From Thermoproteota archaeon (lineage in GTDB: Archaea > Thermoproteota > Thermoprotei > Gearchaeales > Gearchaeaceae), in the NCBI GenBank assembly GCA_021324265.1, contig JAJPJK010000001.1:115617-179616 (forward strand): a stretch of DNA of 64,000 bases, in the 5' to 3' direction. The position numbers and the translations under genes were made by a program. Positions 14,226 through 24,275 of the stretch are shown one piece after another. How positions within the stretch are numbered: the stretch's first letter is position 1; every line of letters begins with the position of its first letter. The notes beneath the pieces are model-generated. The model had not been told where the DNA came from. It searched no databases and saw only the letters and a list, made by a program, of their open reading frames with translations.

Positions 14226-14617
14226 GTGCACCTATTTATTGGAGGGAAAAACTCTACAGATATAGGCTTGTTGCATCTTACTGCGACAAATGTAATAAAA
14301 AATACTATCCACCTAGACCAGTTTGTCTTCAATGTGGCAATACTGAGTTGAGGGAAGTGAAGCTTCCAAATACGGGCACATTAATTAGTTTCACTACAGT
14401 GTATCAAACCTTTCCTGAATTTTCAAAACTTGCTCCCTATGTTATAGGTATAATAAGACTTGATGATGGCACGACAATAGTTGCACAGCTTACTGATGTT
14501 GACCAAATTGAGCTAAAAGAAGGAATTAGGGTTGAAGCTGTATTCAGAAAAATGTATGAGGACGGCGAATCTGGTCTTATATACTACGGCACCAAGTTTA
14601 GGCCGGTCTCAAGATGA
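14222..14617 (+). CDS. DUF35 OB-fold/zinc-ribbon acyl-CoA-associated protein
   Basis: CDKCNKKYYPPRPVCLQCGN; follows HMGCS-thiolase pair. Confidence 0.93.
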   Translation: MSAPIYWREKLYRYRLVASYCDKCNKKYYPPRPVCLQCGNTELREVKLPNTGTLISFTTVYQTFPEFSKLAPYVIGIIRLDDGTTIVAQLTDVDQIELKEGIRVEAVFRKMYEDGESGLIYYGTKFRPVSR

Positions 14618-15523
14618 ATATAGTAAGGGTTTAATGTAATCTTTATTAGACTGAATCACCACTCTCATATTTCCTTGCTTGTCTTTTTCCAATTGTCCCC
14701 TTATCAAAGCATGTTCTCCCTTTTTCAGCATTTCTGCATATCTTAGCTTAAAGGATATGACATCGAATCTTTTACCGCTAATATCTTTTACTTGATAGAT
14801 AGATGGGAAGAGAAAGTTCTGAGAATCGTCCTCAATAATTACGTTTGTCTCGAAATCCCCCAATACAAGGCTTGGCTCGTATTCTTTTCTATTCACGAAT
14901 TTAATAGAGTATATTTTATCTTTGAATTTTCCCTCAATAAGTTTTCTCTGCTCTAACAATTCAAATGTTTTATAGTCCATTATTTCTTCAGCTTCTCTTT
15001 CTTTGTAAAGTTTTAGCATGTATTCTTCGGGTAGTGCATCTAATTCTTTTTTCTCTCTAAGCTTTTTTAGCGCGAAATACACTTTAAAAGGCTCTTTACC
15101 ATAGTAGGCAATATCCATATCTGAATCAGGTCTATGAAGCCCAAGCAATATTGATCCTCCAATACCAAAGCTAGCTGTGCTTTCACCGCTTTCTTCAGCT
15201 AAAAGTTCAACGAATTCTTTAACACGCTTTTCACTTTCATCTCTAGGTTCTTTCAGAATCCTCTTCAATTTTGCAATAGGATTATAAACTAGCTTGATTT
15301 CTTCGAAGGGAAATATTAGTGCATCTCTTTTTAGAAATTTTGATTTCTTTAAAAGCGGATAGTCTACTATTTTCAATATTTCATTGATATCCTTTATTTT
15401 TATATATGTATCATTAATCTTAATATATTTAGGAATAATAAACAGTTCGTTATATTTTTCGTTGAAATAGATTACGTAAAAAATATTATCAAATTTATCT
15501 TTTATTCCTGTTAACTCAAGCAT
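14609..15523 (-). CDS. Predicted nucleotidyltransferase (MNT fold, COG1665-like)
   Basis: FGIGGSILLGLHRPDSDMDIAYYG = GS-x10-DSDxD motif; C-terminal OB-like segment. Confidence 0.75.
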   Translation of the reverse strand: MLELTGIKDKFDNIFYVIYFNEKYNELFIIPKYIKINDTYIKIKDINEILKIVDYPLLKKSKFLKRDALIFPFEEIKLVYNPIAKLKRILKEPRDESEKRVKEFVELLAEESGESTASFGIGGSILLGLHRPDSDMDIAYYGKEPFKVYFALKKLREKKELDALPEEYMLKLYKEREAEEIMDYKTFELLEQRKLIEGKFKDKIYSIKFVNRKEYEPSLVLGDFETNVIIEDDSQNFLFPSIYQVKDISGKRFDVISFKLRYAEMLKKGEHALIRGQLEKDKQGNMRVVIQSNKDYIKPLLYSS

Positions 15524-16664: not shown

Positions 16665-16683
16665 AGCGCCGTAAAAGCGCCGT
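16665..16683 (+). repeat. Tandem duplication of the tRNA-Gln 5' acceptor strand
   Basis: AGCGCCGT aaa AGCGCCGT. Confidence 0.8.
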
Positions 16684-16749
16684 GGTGTAGCTGGCCAAGC
16701 ATGTTGGGCTTTGGACCCTGAGACCCAGGTTCGAATCCTGGCGGCGCTA
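16676..16749 (+). tRNA. tRNA-Gln (TTG)
   Basis: Acceptor AGCGCCG/CGGCGCT, discriminator A, anticodon loop CTTTGGA, T arm CCAGG-TTCGAAT-CCTGG. Confidence 0.93.
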
Positions 16750-18411
16750 TTTGAGAAGATATCTCTCCTTTAGCTGATTTAAGATACTATCTATTTTTGC
16801 TCTTGAATCCCTTATCATTCTCATGTTGAGATCCACAGTTCTTTTGTAAACATCCTGTTGCATTTTCTTAGTTTTGACTGCATTTCTTGCCTCTCTAAGA
16901 GCACTTTGGGCTTTGATCAGCCTTGAATATGCATTATTTAGCTCATTTATTATCTGTTTAGTCTCTGGATATTTTGAAGTAAGCATATTAGCTAGTGATC
17001 TGAAGTCGCTCTCCTTCGATTCTATGTTTCTTCTTAGATTGTTTATTCTAACTGTGTAATCTTGCTTCTTTATTGTTCCCCTTTCAAGTTCTTGGTCAAG
17101 TCTTTCCATTTCTTCATTATCTAAAATTAATGTTTCCATAAGGTTCACAAATCGAGGTAGTTCAGGTATCCTCGTTATTTCTTCTTTTGTAGGCCTGAAA
17201 GCAAACCTAGTGTAAGCGAAGGCAATAAACATTAATACTGCAACCACAGCTAGGATTTGATCAACAAAGTCTAAAGAGATCACATAAGGATTGATTGTTG
17301 CATTTAAAGAAATCTTAAAGCTTTCAGTTGGATCCACATTATGAAGAACATATATGTAGTCTATACCATCTTGATGCTTTATCACATTATCAGGCGTCGG
17401 CGAAATCTCTACATTTACAGGATATTTTACTGAAACTGTTAGAGTCAAATTATCGATTATGTAATAATTGTTCTGTAAAGCGTTCAAGCTTAAAGATATT
17501 CTCTGCTTATTCTGATCTACCGTTCCTATATTGGTTAAGTTGATCTCGCTTGTTACTATTACTTTTTCGAACAAATTGCTGATGAAGGCACTCGTTAAAT
17601 ATGTGTTGAGTAAGGGGTATCTCAGAGATATAGAGCCACCTGTGTAGGTTAATGTTCCAAGATCATCTCTCACGTTTACGACAGTCGCATTTGGTAACAA
17701 ATATGGAACCCATGAAGTAACTGTCTGGTTCCTTCCTACATATTGAAGCAGGAAAGAATCCACAATGGTTACTTTGCTTAGATTATCTACTATTATTGTC
17801 CTATTTAGACTGCTAATTTTTACCCATGGTATATCGCTCGCTGGGTTGAAGCTGAACGTAAGTAGGGTAGTATTCATAGCATTTAGGTTAGTAGCATTAT
17901 AAACAATGTAATTCACACCATTAACAAACTTTTGAGTAGCGCCTTTTGGCGAAGTTGGGTTGATATTGCTAACTGGAGATGTAAACTTAACAGTAGCGTT
18001 TAGCTTTGCTATAGGTAGATCAGAAGGGAAATATGCGAACATATTAACTTGTTCTCCTCCAGATACATCTTGGAAAATCCTGTCGTCATATACCCTAATA
18101 ACTGTTAGATTTCCTTGGAATCCATTCAAAGCTATTGTAAAACCTATGTATGAACCTTTAATCGGGCCCCACTGAATGGGGAAGTTTGGAATAGTATGTA
18201 CCGAATATAATGTGCTGTATTCGTTACTTGTAAGATATACAGTCAAGCTTGATAAACCAGTAGGGATTTTTATTGTATCATTCACAACAACGAAGCCAGG
18301 ATAAACTTGTATCAGTCTGTTAACGCTCAGCTGAGTCTGGGCATACGTATTCGTGAAGAAAGCTAGCGCTATAACTATAAGCAACAATGAAAATGCTAAA
18401 GTCTTCCTCAT
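16747..18411 (-). CDS. Ribophorin I/Ost1-like membrane protein (signal peptide, large extracytoplasmic beta-rich domain, one TM, cytosolic coiled coil)
   Basis: Segments [53 protein letters not shown] and [10 protein letters not shown] resemble conserved blocks of eukaryotic ribophorin I recalled from memory, in the same order. Confidence 0.7.
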   Translation of the reverse strand: [554 protein letters not shown]

Positions 18412-19767: not shown

Positions 19768-21301
19768 ACAGGCAAGCTATCCAGAACGCTTAATATTCCA
19801 ATACAAAGATCAGAAAAGTGATCATGCATATTGGCTTAGCGATAAAGATCTTGAACTAGTAATGAACTATTTGCCTGAAAACATGAAGCGAACCGAAGAT
19901 CCTAACATTCCAGATCTACCTGAGAATTTAGTTGTGAGACATTTCACAAGACTATCTAGGTTGAATCATGCCATAGATATTTCTACATATCCACTAGGAT
20001 CATGTACAATGAAATACAATTTGAAGAGTATGGAAAGGTTATCGTCTATTAGTGATTTAGCATATCTTCATGACGCATATCCTGATGATATGGTTCAAGG
20101 TCTTTTGGAATTGCTTTACTTGCTTGATAAATATCTCTGTGAGATCACAGGTATGGATAAGTTCTCATTGCAACCATCTGCTGGTGCACATGGTGAGCTT
20201 ACGGGTGTTTTGATCATAAAGAAGTATCATGAAGTGAATGGCGAGGGTGGCATTAGGGATGAGATCTTGGTTCCAGACTCTGCACATGGTACAAACCCTG
20301 CCAGTGCAGCGATGGCCGGGTTTAAGGTCGTAGAGGTGAAGTCAAATAGCGAAGGTACAGTTGATATGGATGATTTGATTTCAAAGATTAGTAGAAGGAC
20401 AGCAGGGCTCATGTTGACAAATCCCAACACTCTTGGTCTCTTTGAAAAGGATGTTTTAGAAATCTCCAAGGTCATTCATGAAGCTGGAGGTTTGCTGTAT
20501 TATGATGGCGCTAACCTCAACGGAATATTATGTTATTCAAGGCCAGGAGACATGGGATTTGATCTTGCACATTTAAATCTCCATAAAACCTTTGGAACAC
20601 CTCATGGCGGTGGCGGTCCAGGTGCTGGACCCCTAGGAGTAAAAGCGCATTTGAAAGAATTTTTGCCAATTCCAGTAGTTGAGAAGGAAGGAGAAAAATA
20701 CAGATTGAATTATAATCTGAGACATAGTATTGGAAGGGTAAAAGAGGGCTTTGGCAACACGCTTGTTTTAATGAAAGCATTACTGTTCATATTAATAAAG
20801 GGTTATGAGGGTTTACGTGAAAGTAGGGAAAAGGCTGTAGAAAATACTAGATATTTTCTTGATCAAATGAAGGATGTCGAAGAAATCACTTTGACGCATA
20901 ATCCAAGGCTAATGCGTTACCATGAATGCCTACTTAGCGCTAAAAAACTCAAGGATAAGACTGGCGTAGATGCAAAAGATATAGCGAAACGAATATTCGA
21001 TTATGGCTTTCATCCACCGATGATTTATTTTCCTCTTATCGTTGATGAAGCCCTCTTAATAGAATTTACTGAAGACGAAACTAAAGAAAATATTAAGAGT
21101 TATGCTGAAGTCTTGAAAAAGATTGTAAAAGAGGCTTACGAAAATCCATTTTTACTTAAAACTGCACCTCATACCACGTTCATTGGCAGGCTCGATGAAG
21201 TAAAGGCATCCCATCCAAAGACGATGACTTTGAACTGGAAAAAGGCTAGAGAAAGATATAAAGATCTCTTAGAAAAGCTAGCTAGCCAGTCTAGCGATTA
21301 A
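19760..21301 (+). CDS. gcvPB: Glycine dehydrogenase (decarboxylating) subunit 2
   Basis: YPLGSCTMKYN; DLAHLNLHKTFGTPHGGGGPGAGPLGV; in-frame ATG at 19760 likely start. Confidence 0.97.
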   Translation: MYRQASYPERLIFQYKDQKSDHAYWLSDKDLELVMNYLPENMKRTEDPNIPDLPENLVVRHFTRLSRLNHAIDISTYPLGSCTMKYNLKSMERLSSISDLAYLHDAYPDDMVQGLLELLYLLDKYLCEITGMDKFSLQPSAGAHGELTGVLIIKKYHEVNGEGGIRDEILVPDSAHGTNPASAAMAGFKVVEVKSNSEGTVDMDDLISKISRRTAGLMLTNPNTLGLFEKDVLEISKVIHEAGGLLYYDGANLNGILCYSRPGDMGFDLAHLNLHKTFGTPHGGGGPGAGPLGVKAHLKEFLPIPVVEKEGEKYRLNYNLRHSIGRVKEGFGNTLVLMKALLFILIKGYEGLRESREKAVENTRYFLDQMKDVEEITLTHNPRLMRYHECLLSAKKLKDKTGVDAKDIAKRIFDYGFHPPMIYFPLIVDEALLIEFTEDETKENIKSYAEVLKKIVKEAYENPFLLKTAPHTTFIGRLDEVKASHPKTMTLNWKKARERYKDLLEKLASQSSD

Positions 21302-22570
21302 ATAATAAGGAGTAACTTCTTCAATTTTCACATTTACAAATTTTCCTATTAGTGTTTCATCTTCTTTTTTAATTATCACACATCTGTAGTCCTGTGCTCT
21401 AGCTTCCAAAAATCCCTTTTCTCCTTTTCCAGTTACTAATACTTTCATTTCTCTACCGATGAATTTTTCATTCTTTTTCAGCGTGATTTCATCGCATATT
21501 CTAACAAGCTCTTTGGATCTTCTTTTTTTAGTTGAATCTGGCAATTGAATTAAAGAAGCTGCCTTAGTAAGTGGTCTTTGAGAGTATTGAGCTACATGGA
21601 CTTTATCAAATTCGATCTCTTTAACTAGCTTTATCGTATTCTCAAAGGCTTCCTCATCTTCACCAGGATAACCAACTATAATATCCGTAGCAAGGAAAAT
21701 GTCAGGATGTTCACTCCTAAGATCTGCAATGAAATCTTTGAACTCCTTTACTGTATGTAATCTTTGCATATCAGCTAAAATTCTATCGTCTCCGCTCTGT
21801 ACAGGCACATGACAAAACTTGTAGACTTTTTCATTGTGATATATCTTCTTTAATCCATTTGATATCCTGAAAGCGAACCAAGGCGTGAACATCCCTATCC
21901 TTACTCTGTATTCTCCTTCTATCTCAATAAGACCCTCTATGAGTTCAATTAAGTTTGTGTTTATATCTAAACCATAGACAGCAGTATCTTGTGCAGTAAG
22001 ATAAATCTCCTTCGCTCCTTTTTTGATTGCTTCCTCAAATGCGGCCTTCAGCGTTGAAGGCCTATAGCTATAAAGTGTGCCTCTTGTATACTTCACTGCA
22101 CAGAAAGAGCATGAACCTAAGCATCCTGATGCGATCGGAAGTTCATAAGGTCCTTTTCCATCATATCTAGGTATGATTTCGTATTCTCTATCGCTTCCTC
22201 CTATTAGTAGCCTATTCTCTATCTTGTCTTGACTTACTATTTTCGGTATTTCTTTAATGAGCGAAGGCGTAACAAATATGGCATTTCGATTTACATTGTA
22301 TAGCTTGTAAGGGTTTAGCTTTACCATGCATCCTGTTACTAGGATTTTTGCTCCATTGCGTTCAGCAATTTTTGAATATTTCTCGAGTGCATGTATAGCC
22401 TTTAATTCAGATTCATTCCTAACTGCACAAGTATTGATGATCACTACATCAGCTTCATCAGGATTCTCAGTTTTAACGAAAGATTGAGCATCAAGAGATT
22501 GAGAGATGAATCTGCTATCTGCCTCATTAAATGTGCAGCCAAATGTTTCGATGTAATATTTCTGAAGCAT
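21278..22570 (-). CDS. tRNA methylthiotransferase (MiaB/e-MtaB family, radical SAM)
   Basis: YYIETFGCTFNEADS; ASGCLGSCSFCAVKYTRG; C-terminal TRAM-like segment. Confidence 0.93.
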   Translation of the reverse strand: MLQKYYIETFGCTFNEADSRFISQSLDAQSFVKTENPDEADVVIINTCAVRNESELKAIHALEKYSKIAERNGAKILVTGCMVKLNPYKLYNVNRNAIFVTPSLIKEIPKIVSQDKIENRLLIGGSDREYEIIPRYDGKGPYELPIASGCLGSCSFCAVKYTRGTLYSYRPSTLKAAFEEAIKKGAKEIYLTAQDTAVYGLDINTNLIELIEGLIEIEGEYRVRIGMFTPWFAFRISNGLKKIYHNEKVYKFCHVPVQSGDDRILADMQRLHTVKEFKDFIADLRSEHPDIFLATDIIVGYPGEDEEAFENTIKLVKEIEFDKVHVAQYSQRPLTKAASLIQLPDSTKKRRSKELVRICDEITLKKNEKFIGREMKVLVTGKGEKGFLEARAQDYRCVIIKKEDETLIGKFVNVKIEEVTPYYLIARLAS

Positions 22571-22613: not shown

Positions 22614-24275
22614 CTATGCATTTTTTCTTATCGCTTCTAGCTTATTTTGAAGTTCTTCAAGGGTATATTTTCTAAACAAAATCTTAGGTTCAGAAATCTT
22701 ATGAGTTTTTTCAAAAGGATCCGCTAAAGCATCTTCCCATACAAATTGTTCAGGCAAGTTCATCATATGCCTAAGTTCCAAACATTTTGAAGGTATAATC
22801 GGGAAGAGAACTACAGAAAGTGAGTTTAACAATCTAAGTAATACATAAATTATTCTTGAGGCCTCTTCTCTATTTCTCTTGGCAATTTCCCATGGCTTTT
22901 TTTCATTAAAGAACCAGTTGCCTAACCTTGCTATATCCATAGCAGCATTGAGCGCATTTCTCAATTTTACTTGCCTGAAACTCGAATCAGCTTCTTTAAT
23001 TAATTCTTCAGTCTTTAGTAAAACATCTTTTTCTTCTTGAGTTAAAAGCTGCGGTTTCTTGACAGTATATTCAAAATAATTTTTGGTGAAACTCAAAACT
23101 CTGTATGCAAGATTCCCTAACGTATCATTAAGATGGGAATTTACGAGTTCAACAAATAGCTTTAAGGAAAATTCCGTATCTCTTTCTTCAGGCCTCAAAT
23201 ATATCAGGACATATCTCCAGTAGTCAGGCTCCGCAAGCTGTAAGGCTTCATCAAGCCATATTCCGATACCTTGGCTTTTCGAGAATTTTTTACCTTCATA
23301 TGTTAAAAATTCAGTTGTTGAGATAATATGGGGCAAGTTGTATCCTTGACTGTTAGCCATGAGTAGTGCTGGGAATATTACAGCATGGAATGGAATGTTG
23401 TCCTTTCCAATGAAGTAATAAGTTAAAGCTTCCTTGTTGAACCAAAATTCTTTCCACCGTTCGTCATTGAAATATTCTATCGTCGCTGATATATAGCCCA
23501 GTACAGCTTCAAACCAGACATATATAGTTTTATTTTCGAGCTCTTTAAAGGGTGCAGGTATGCCCCATTGATTATCTCTTGTAAGTGCTCTAGCTCTGAA
23601 TTCGTCTTTTATATAACTCAGACTCATTATTTTCGTTCTTTTGTCAAAGTAGGGATTATTGTTTATGTATTCTATGACTTTATCTCTTAGTTTAGGGAAG
23701 TCTATGAAGCCATGCTTAGTTTCTTTTTGTATTGGTTTGCTGCCACAAACAATACATCTTGGCTCTATAAGCTGCATTGGTTCTAAAAGGCTTCCGCAGT
23801 TTTCGCATTGATCACCTCTAGCTCTTTCATAACCGCATATCGGGCAAGTCCCTATAACAAATCTATCCGGTAAAAAGATGGAATCCTTCTCGCAGAATAA
23901 TTGTATCATTTTTTGGTAGAAGATGTAACCGTTCTCTTCAATCTTTTTGTAGAATTTTCTAACGAAATCTTTATGGATTTCGCTCTCAGTTCTAGTATAG
24001 TTGTTGAATGATATCTCCAAATTCTCGAAAATTTTTTTAATTTCTGCATGCATTTCGTCGGTCAATTCTCTTGGTTTCTTCTTCCTTAGCATTGCTTCTA
24101 CCTCAATAGGAGTTCCATGTTCGTCTGAGCCGCTTACAAAAACTACATCATCTCCCTTAAGCCTGTGATACCTTGCAATGACATCAGCTGAGAGCGGATG
24201 TATTAAATTGCCCAAGTGAGGTATCGAATAGGCATATGGCCATGCACACGTAACTAGTACCTTTAGATTTTTCAC
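22614..24275 (-). CDS. metG: Methionyl-tRNA synthetase
   Basis: VLVTCAWPYAYSIPHLGN; CPICG..CENCG..CIVCG; KFSKSQGIGI. Confidence 0.97.
   Translation of the reverse strand: MKNLKVLVTCAWPYAYSIPHLGNLIHPLSADVIARYHRLKGDDVVFVSGSDEHGTPIEVEAMLRKKKPRELTDEMHAEIKKIFENLEISFNNYTRTESEIHKDFVRKFYKKIEENGYIFYQKMIQLFCEKDSIFLPDRFVIGTCPICGYERARGDQCENCGSLLEPMQLIEPRCIVCGSKPIQKETKHGFIDFPKLRDKVIEYINNNPYFDKRTKIMSLSYIKDEFRARALTRDNQWGIPAPFKELENKTIYVWFEAVLGYISATIEYFNDERWKEFWFNKEALTYYFIGKDNIPFHAVIFPALLMANSQGYNLPHIISTTEFLTYEGKKFSKSQGIGIWLDEALQLAEPDYWRYVLIYLRPEERDTEFSLKLFVELVNSHLNDTLGNLAYRVLSFTKNYFEYTVKKPQLLTQEEKDVLLKTEELIKEADSSFRQVKLRNALNAAMDIARLGNWFFNEKKPWEIAKRNREEASRIIYVLLRLLNSLSVVLFPIIPSKCLELRHMMNLPEQFVWEDALADPFEKTHKISEPKILFRKYTLEELQNKLEAIRKNA

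Follow-up and report, generated by a model that had tools for sequence, protein, structure and literature searches.

Ribophorin I (Ost1) is a helper subunit of the oligosaccharyltransferase (OST), the enzyme complex with which eukaryotic cells glycosylate their proteins, and the accessory subunits of this complex were long regarded as eukaryotic. A survey published in 2016 recorded no convincing archaeal candidates for them (PMC4973528), while the OST subunits of Asgard archaea have been reviewed elsewhere (PMC10307638), and a single sentence in a further study places OST1 and OST3/6 in eukaryotes, TACK and Asgard archaea (PMC11417166). The latter study demonstrated experimentally that the cytoplasmic domains of both MK-D1 and human OST1 bind ribosomes, in pull-downs for MK-D1, and TRAP subunits are not expected outside Asgard archaea and eukaryotes (PMC11417166). 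The OST1 of the Asgard archaeon Candidatus Prometheoarchaeum syntrophicum MK-D1 consists of a signal peptide, a beta ectodomain, one transmembrane (TM) helix and a cytoplasmic four-helix bundle (cytosolic domain, PDB 8WHN).

The same anatomy is found in a protein encoded within the window (i.e. the whole stretch of 64,000 nucleotides analysed here), the bundle of which resembles that of MK-D1 (8whn) by both sequence and fold. Human ribophorin I and yeast Ost1 (6s7o_E, 8b6l_O and 8agb_E) also correspond to the window protein in architecture, fold and block order and share with it a C-terminal KIDxIL motif, at ~11-16% identity in structural alignments. In contrast to these proteins of the ER, the window protein belongs to the cell membrane, and the only putative partners detected for it are AglB and an OSTC/Ost3-like protein. 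The gene, its parts and its relevant neighbours in the window are as follows:

16747..18411, minus strand: Ost1/ribophorin I-like open reading frame of 554 aa with an ATG start (coordinates include the stop codon)
18337..18411, minus strand: signal peptide, approximately residues 1-25 (helix 2-24 in the model)
17290..18336, minus strand: extracytoplasmic beta ectodomain, residues 26-374 (strands in the model; 12 N-X-S/T sequons)
17200..17289, minus strand: single TM helix, residues 375-404 (from the model; aligns with the TM helix of ribophorin I)
16756..17160, minus strand: basic cytoplasmic four-helix bundle, residues 418-552, ending in KIDSILNQL
16676..16749, plus strand: tRNA-Gln gene, a convergent neighbour outside the system
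21278..22570, minus strand: MtaB-like methylthiotransferase (UPF0004, radical SAM, TRAM), a syntenic neighbour of Ost1
22614..24275, minus strand: methionyl-tRNA synthetase (MetRS), a syntenic neighbour of Ost1

A sequence-only reading of the window had already delimited the open reading frame exactly (16747-18411, minus strand, 554 aa), and the architecture that it described, comprising a signal peptide, a beta-type ectodomain, one TM helix and a basic helical C-terminal tail, was borne out by the present analysis. The TAG stop codon of the gene (16747-16749) overlaps by three bases with the 3' end of the convergent tRNA-Gln gene. In an AlphaFold2 model generated without templates (mean pLDDT 86.8), the ectodomain is composed of two parts with ~20 beta strands between residues 28 and 373, and the cytoplasmic bundle is formed by helices 418-443, 449-480, 482-513 and 519-552. 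A type I topology is predicted, with a cleavable signal peptide, a single TM helix and a cytoplasmic C-terminus. The distribution of sequons fits this topology, as the ectodomain contains 12 (shuffle mean 6.3, P=0.013) and the 150-residue cytoplasmic tail none. The net charge of this tail is +8, and that of its counterparts in relatives ranges from +7 to +15 in nearly all cases, with a value of +1 in one.

To assess the proposed relationship to ribophorin I, a profile (A1) was constructed from ten class-level homologues, which exhibit 16-34% identity to the window protein and are of similar length, one being cut by a contig end. Their architecture is uniform from the signal peptide to the helical C-terminus, with a conserved hydrophobic N-terminus, and the nearest relatives carry a KID-x-IL type ending. 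When A1 was searched against 177,635 PDB sequences, the top match was 6s7o_E, the chain of human ribophorin I, aligned over its residues 202-254 and 273-607 (E=2.3e-14), followed by the cytosolic domain of MK-D1 OST1 (8whn; 2.3e-10) and then by an unrelated coiled coil (4e-4). As coiled coils draw false matches, the search was repeated with an ectodomain-only profile (A2), which takes in part of the TM helix, and its sole match among the same 177,635 sequences was ribophorin I (E=5.6e-6). The window sequence on its own retrieved 8whn with phmmer (E=2e-4). Furthermore, the full-length Ost1 of Prometheoarchaeum (L119:4615-6432), a close orthologue of MK-D1 OST1, yields a collinear alignment of 509 columns to A1 (E=3.8e-17), at ~17% identity in the profile alignment, and its ectodomain alone matches that of the A1 family at 6.2e-8. 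A genome scan with the MK-D1 OST1 domain returned Prometheoarchaeum loci only. The six blocks from which the sequence-only reading had argued all recur in the HMMER alignment between the family profile and human ribophorin I, namely an 11-residue block, LP...RDEIGN, RFPL, DSLTVKI...NIEI, the TM segment and KIDHILDAL. The homology that it proposed is thus supported by the profile as a whole and by the ectodomain alone, and the window protein is a genuine Ost1/ribophorin I relative, homologous along its full length.

Structural comparison led to the same protein family. As anticipated when a fold search was suggested, Foldseek ranked Ost1 subunits ahead of all other PDB entries, with ranks 1-8 all occupied by human or yeast Ost1 (E values from 8.1e-26 to 1.4e-15); the first non-Ost1 entry, which is unrelated, followed at 2.4e-6, and the beta domains of M1 peptidases were single-domain matches at ~1e-3. 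The 8whn structure superposes on the bundle of the window protein with a TM-score of 0.76 by target length. Global TM-scores to Ost1 were modest (0.41-0.44 by query length, with a large rmsd), so that the relative placement of the domains is not established by the model; it is uncertain whether their orientation differs from that in Ost1 or was mispredicted.

The Pfam model Ribophorin_I (PF04597) detected neither the window protein nor any other protein in its genome, and Pfam and NCBIfam scans of the window protein yielded weak coiled-coil matches only. PF04597 also gave no match to Prometheoarchaeum Ost1, the MK-D1 counterpart of which is accepted as OST1. Since this protein was missed as well, and relatives from the phylum were caught, the failure reflects a limit of sensitivity. 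Indeed, the curated cut-off was passed in 51 of the 398 genomes sampled from the phylum, and in the cases compared these matches share their loci with A1 matches (e.g. G088:C70, G116:C26 and G364:C73). In the Pfam check proposed earlier, the window sequence alone was not detected, and relatives of it were detected above the cut-off. The homologues that pass PF04597 share the family profile of the window protein, whereas its own order is more divergent and lies below the cut-off. The wider family is therefore already covered by the Pfam definition, and the members from this order represent its divergent edge.

The family is widespread, and its conservation is well in excess of chance. Each of the five genomes searched from the order contained a homologue (four full-length, one truncated by a contig end), and a single-sequence search identified them in 11 of 81 genomes of the class. 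The A1 profile extended the family to 199 of 398 genomes, representing 106 of the 163 genera sampled from the phylum, with matches at 1e-8 or better in 161 genomes. The weakest A1 matches, most of them from families f13 and f14, are possibly noise caused by coiled coils. In family f36, several matches either are interrupted by an in-frame stop or correspond to the second half of the profile alone (G144:C1:213546-214580, G187:C10, G309:C1 and G156:C27), for which gene splitting, a frameshift or a search artefact are possible readings.

As stated in the sequence-only reading, the window contains neither an STT3 nor an Ost3/6 gene. The genome search that it recommended located both an STT3/AglB and an Ost3/6-family protein on another contig, where the single STT3/AglB gene of the genome (G000:C15:209885-211006; E=3.4e-30) lies in an open reading frame (L040:5028-7157, minus strand) carrying the WWDYG motif. 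The second gene is described by the following feature:

212138-212503 of contig C15 in the source genome (G000; L040:8112-8510), 1.1 kb from AglB and diverging from it: small OSTC-like protein with three TM helices

This protein scored 22 bits against Pfam OST3_OST6 (E=1.2e-4; cut-off 27). Its open reading frame of ~130 aa covers the membrane part only, and in the absence of a thioredoxin domain the protein is regarded as OSTC-like rather than as Ost3/6 proper; it resembles human OSTC and MAGT1 in its three TM segments and differs in lacking that domain. An alignment of sixteen such proteins (A3; ~115-140 aa, three TM helices) gave human OSTC (7e-7) and MAGT1 (7.7e-6) as its best PDB matches, and a fold search with a lower-confidence model of the OSTC-like protein (pLDDT 75) ranked OST chain H first at a non-significant E value of 0.19. 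Thioredoxin-like matches to OST3_OST6 (profile positions ~10-110) were set aside, as the model also fires in bacterial controls. Eukaryotic Ost1 pairs with Ost5, and a search of the source genome for Ost5/TMEM258, which had low power as the model gives noise in controls, returned no match.

Across the class, 18 genomes have the OSTC-like gene at a distance of 0.5-6 kb from STT3, and one genome (G018) has it on the same strand as Ost1, 1.2 kb away from that gene. When strong Ost1 matches (A1 at ~1e-8 or better, leaving the weaker ones, chiefly of f13 and f14, uncounted) were compared with OSTC-like proteins across the 398 genomes, 151 encoded both, 10 Ost1 only, 48 the OSTC-like protein only and 189 neither, a co-occurrence that is inflated by shared ancestry. 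Most of the weak A1 matches in f13 and f14 are from genomes without an OSTC-like protein. Co-occurrence of this kind is what would be expected if the two proteins were subunits of a single machine.

Based on full-length homology, fold, topology signals, the presence of AglB and the OSTC-like protein and the co-occurrence of the accessory families, the window protein is very probably an archaeal Ost1/ribophorin I orthologue that serves a small cell-membrane OST as a non-catalytic subunit, positioning AglB and perhaps also the ribosome; from these observations we infer physical association with AglB, ribosome docking and co-translational action. The mechanism outlined here derives from the anatomy of the protein and from the structures of eukaryotic OST complexes. 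Its signal peptide would direct the ectodomain to the outside of the cell, and the TM helix would anchor the protein beside AglB. The ectodomain would then be positioned next to the catalytic domain of AglB/STT3, on the acceptor side, where it probably helps to hold or present nascent polypeptides. The basic cytoplasmic bundle probably docks the translating ribosome or the translocon, and such docking would couple AglB to nascent chains and allow glycosylation as the chain emerges. By analogy with the MK-D1 bundle, to which it is similar in fold and charge, the bundle of the window protein may bind ribosomes.

An alternative explanation is that the protein has retained the fold and ancestry of Ost1 and lost its role in glycosylation, for example as a translocon-associated or ribosome-anchoring protein that acts independently of AglB. 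The Ost1 gene is unlinked to AglB in the source genome, its conserved neighbours (MtaB and MetRS) are translation genes, and the type of bundle that is conserved is a ribosome-binding one, all of which would suit such a role. However, Ost1 strongly co-occurs with the OSTC-like protein, which itself clusters with AglB in the 18 genomes mentioned above and adjoins Ost1 in G018, and the ectodomain, too, is conserved with that of Ost1. Loss of the glycosylation role is consequently considered unlikely, and an OST subunit remains the favoured interpretation.

The resemblance to ribophorin I might alternatively have arisen from coiled-coil composition in a generic membrane-anchored protein with a beta domain and a coiled coil, such as an S-layer anchor or DUF2207-like protein, in keeping with the weak coiled-coil matches of the single-sequence scans and with a match of one family member to DUF2207 at E=0.034. 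No significant match of the family to DUF2207 or an S-layer anchor was obtained in Pfam scans of the window protein and family members. Both the coiled-coil artefact and the generic protein are refuted by the coiled-coil-free ectodomain profile, which finds ribophorin I alone in the PDB, by the fold search, in which Ost1 leads by many orders of magnitude, and by the relatives that pass Pfam Ribophorin_I, leaving this explanation with a negligible likelihood. It is equally improbable that the gene was recently acquired from Asgard archaea or eukaryotes or that the assembly is contaminated, the eukaryote-like character of the protein being the sole point in favour. The gene resides on a 180-kb contig, its base composition is ordinary (36% versus 37% GC) and homologues occur in each of the five genomes from the order and in half of the phylum sample. 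Moreover, in a gene tree of 52 sequences from the phylum and three Asgard sequences (phylum Promethearchaeota), sequences are grouped by taxonomy, with the family and order of the window protein forming a clade at 100/96, although the deep branches of this tree are long and unreliable. The tree and the recurrent linkage to MtaB and MetRS fit vertical inheritance and argue against contamination or recent transfer.

The find is real and informative, and its novelty is smaller than suggested in the sequence-only reading, as such proteins are common across the phylum and OST1 has already been stated for TACK archaea (PMC11417166). The window protein is a divergent addition to the Ost1 of TACK archaea, which is already published and visible in Pfam. 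The present analysis adds the breadth of the family, the proof by ectodomain and fold, and the AglB-linked OSTC-like partner; in openly searchable papers, no description was found of an OSTC-like protein that lacks thioredoxin and is encoded in a cluster with AglB in archaea of this kind. With Ost1, AglB and an OSTC-like protein in one genome, and with the accessory families co-occurring, the origin of the multi-subunit OST becomes testable outside the Asgard archaea. It is somewhat more likely than not that much of the phylum, taken to be Thermoproteota (TACK) from the composition of the class and phylum samples and from the sequence-only reading, operates a minimal, ribosome-docked OST at the cell membrane, the three subunits of which are AglB, Ost1 and an OSTC/Ost3-like protein without a thioredoxin domain. 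If so, a multi-subunit, co-translational OST would predate the split between TACK and Asgard archaea and would be neither an Asgard nor a eukaryotic invention.

In addition to full-length homologues, reading frames of ~464-488 aa were observed that match only the N-terminal part of Ribophorin_I (positions ~10-101; E values from 1e-4 to 7e-3), located at G357:C50, G106:C10, G199:C14, G219:C1, G363:C24 (family f17) and G009:C85. These frames possibly represent a second, distantly related beta-domain family.

The flanks of the Ost1 gene in the window are ordinary and comprise a GcvT-like gene (identified from sequence only), the glycine-cleavage genes GcvPA and GcvPB, and the MtaB-like methylthiotransferase and MetRS genes. 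Among ~40 loci surveyed across the phylum, the MtaB-like gene is linked to Ost1 in 17 and MetRS in 11, indicative of an old syntenic block, the functional reason for which is not obvious. A 304-aa protein with a nucleotidyltransferase domain (NTP_transf_2) is encoded at positions 14609-15523 of the window, adjoining GcvT.
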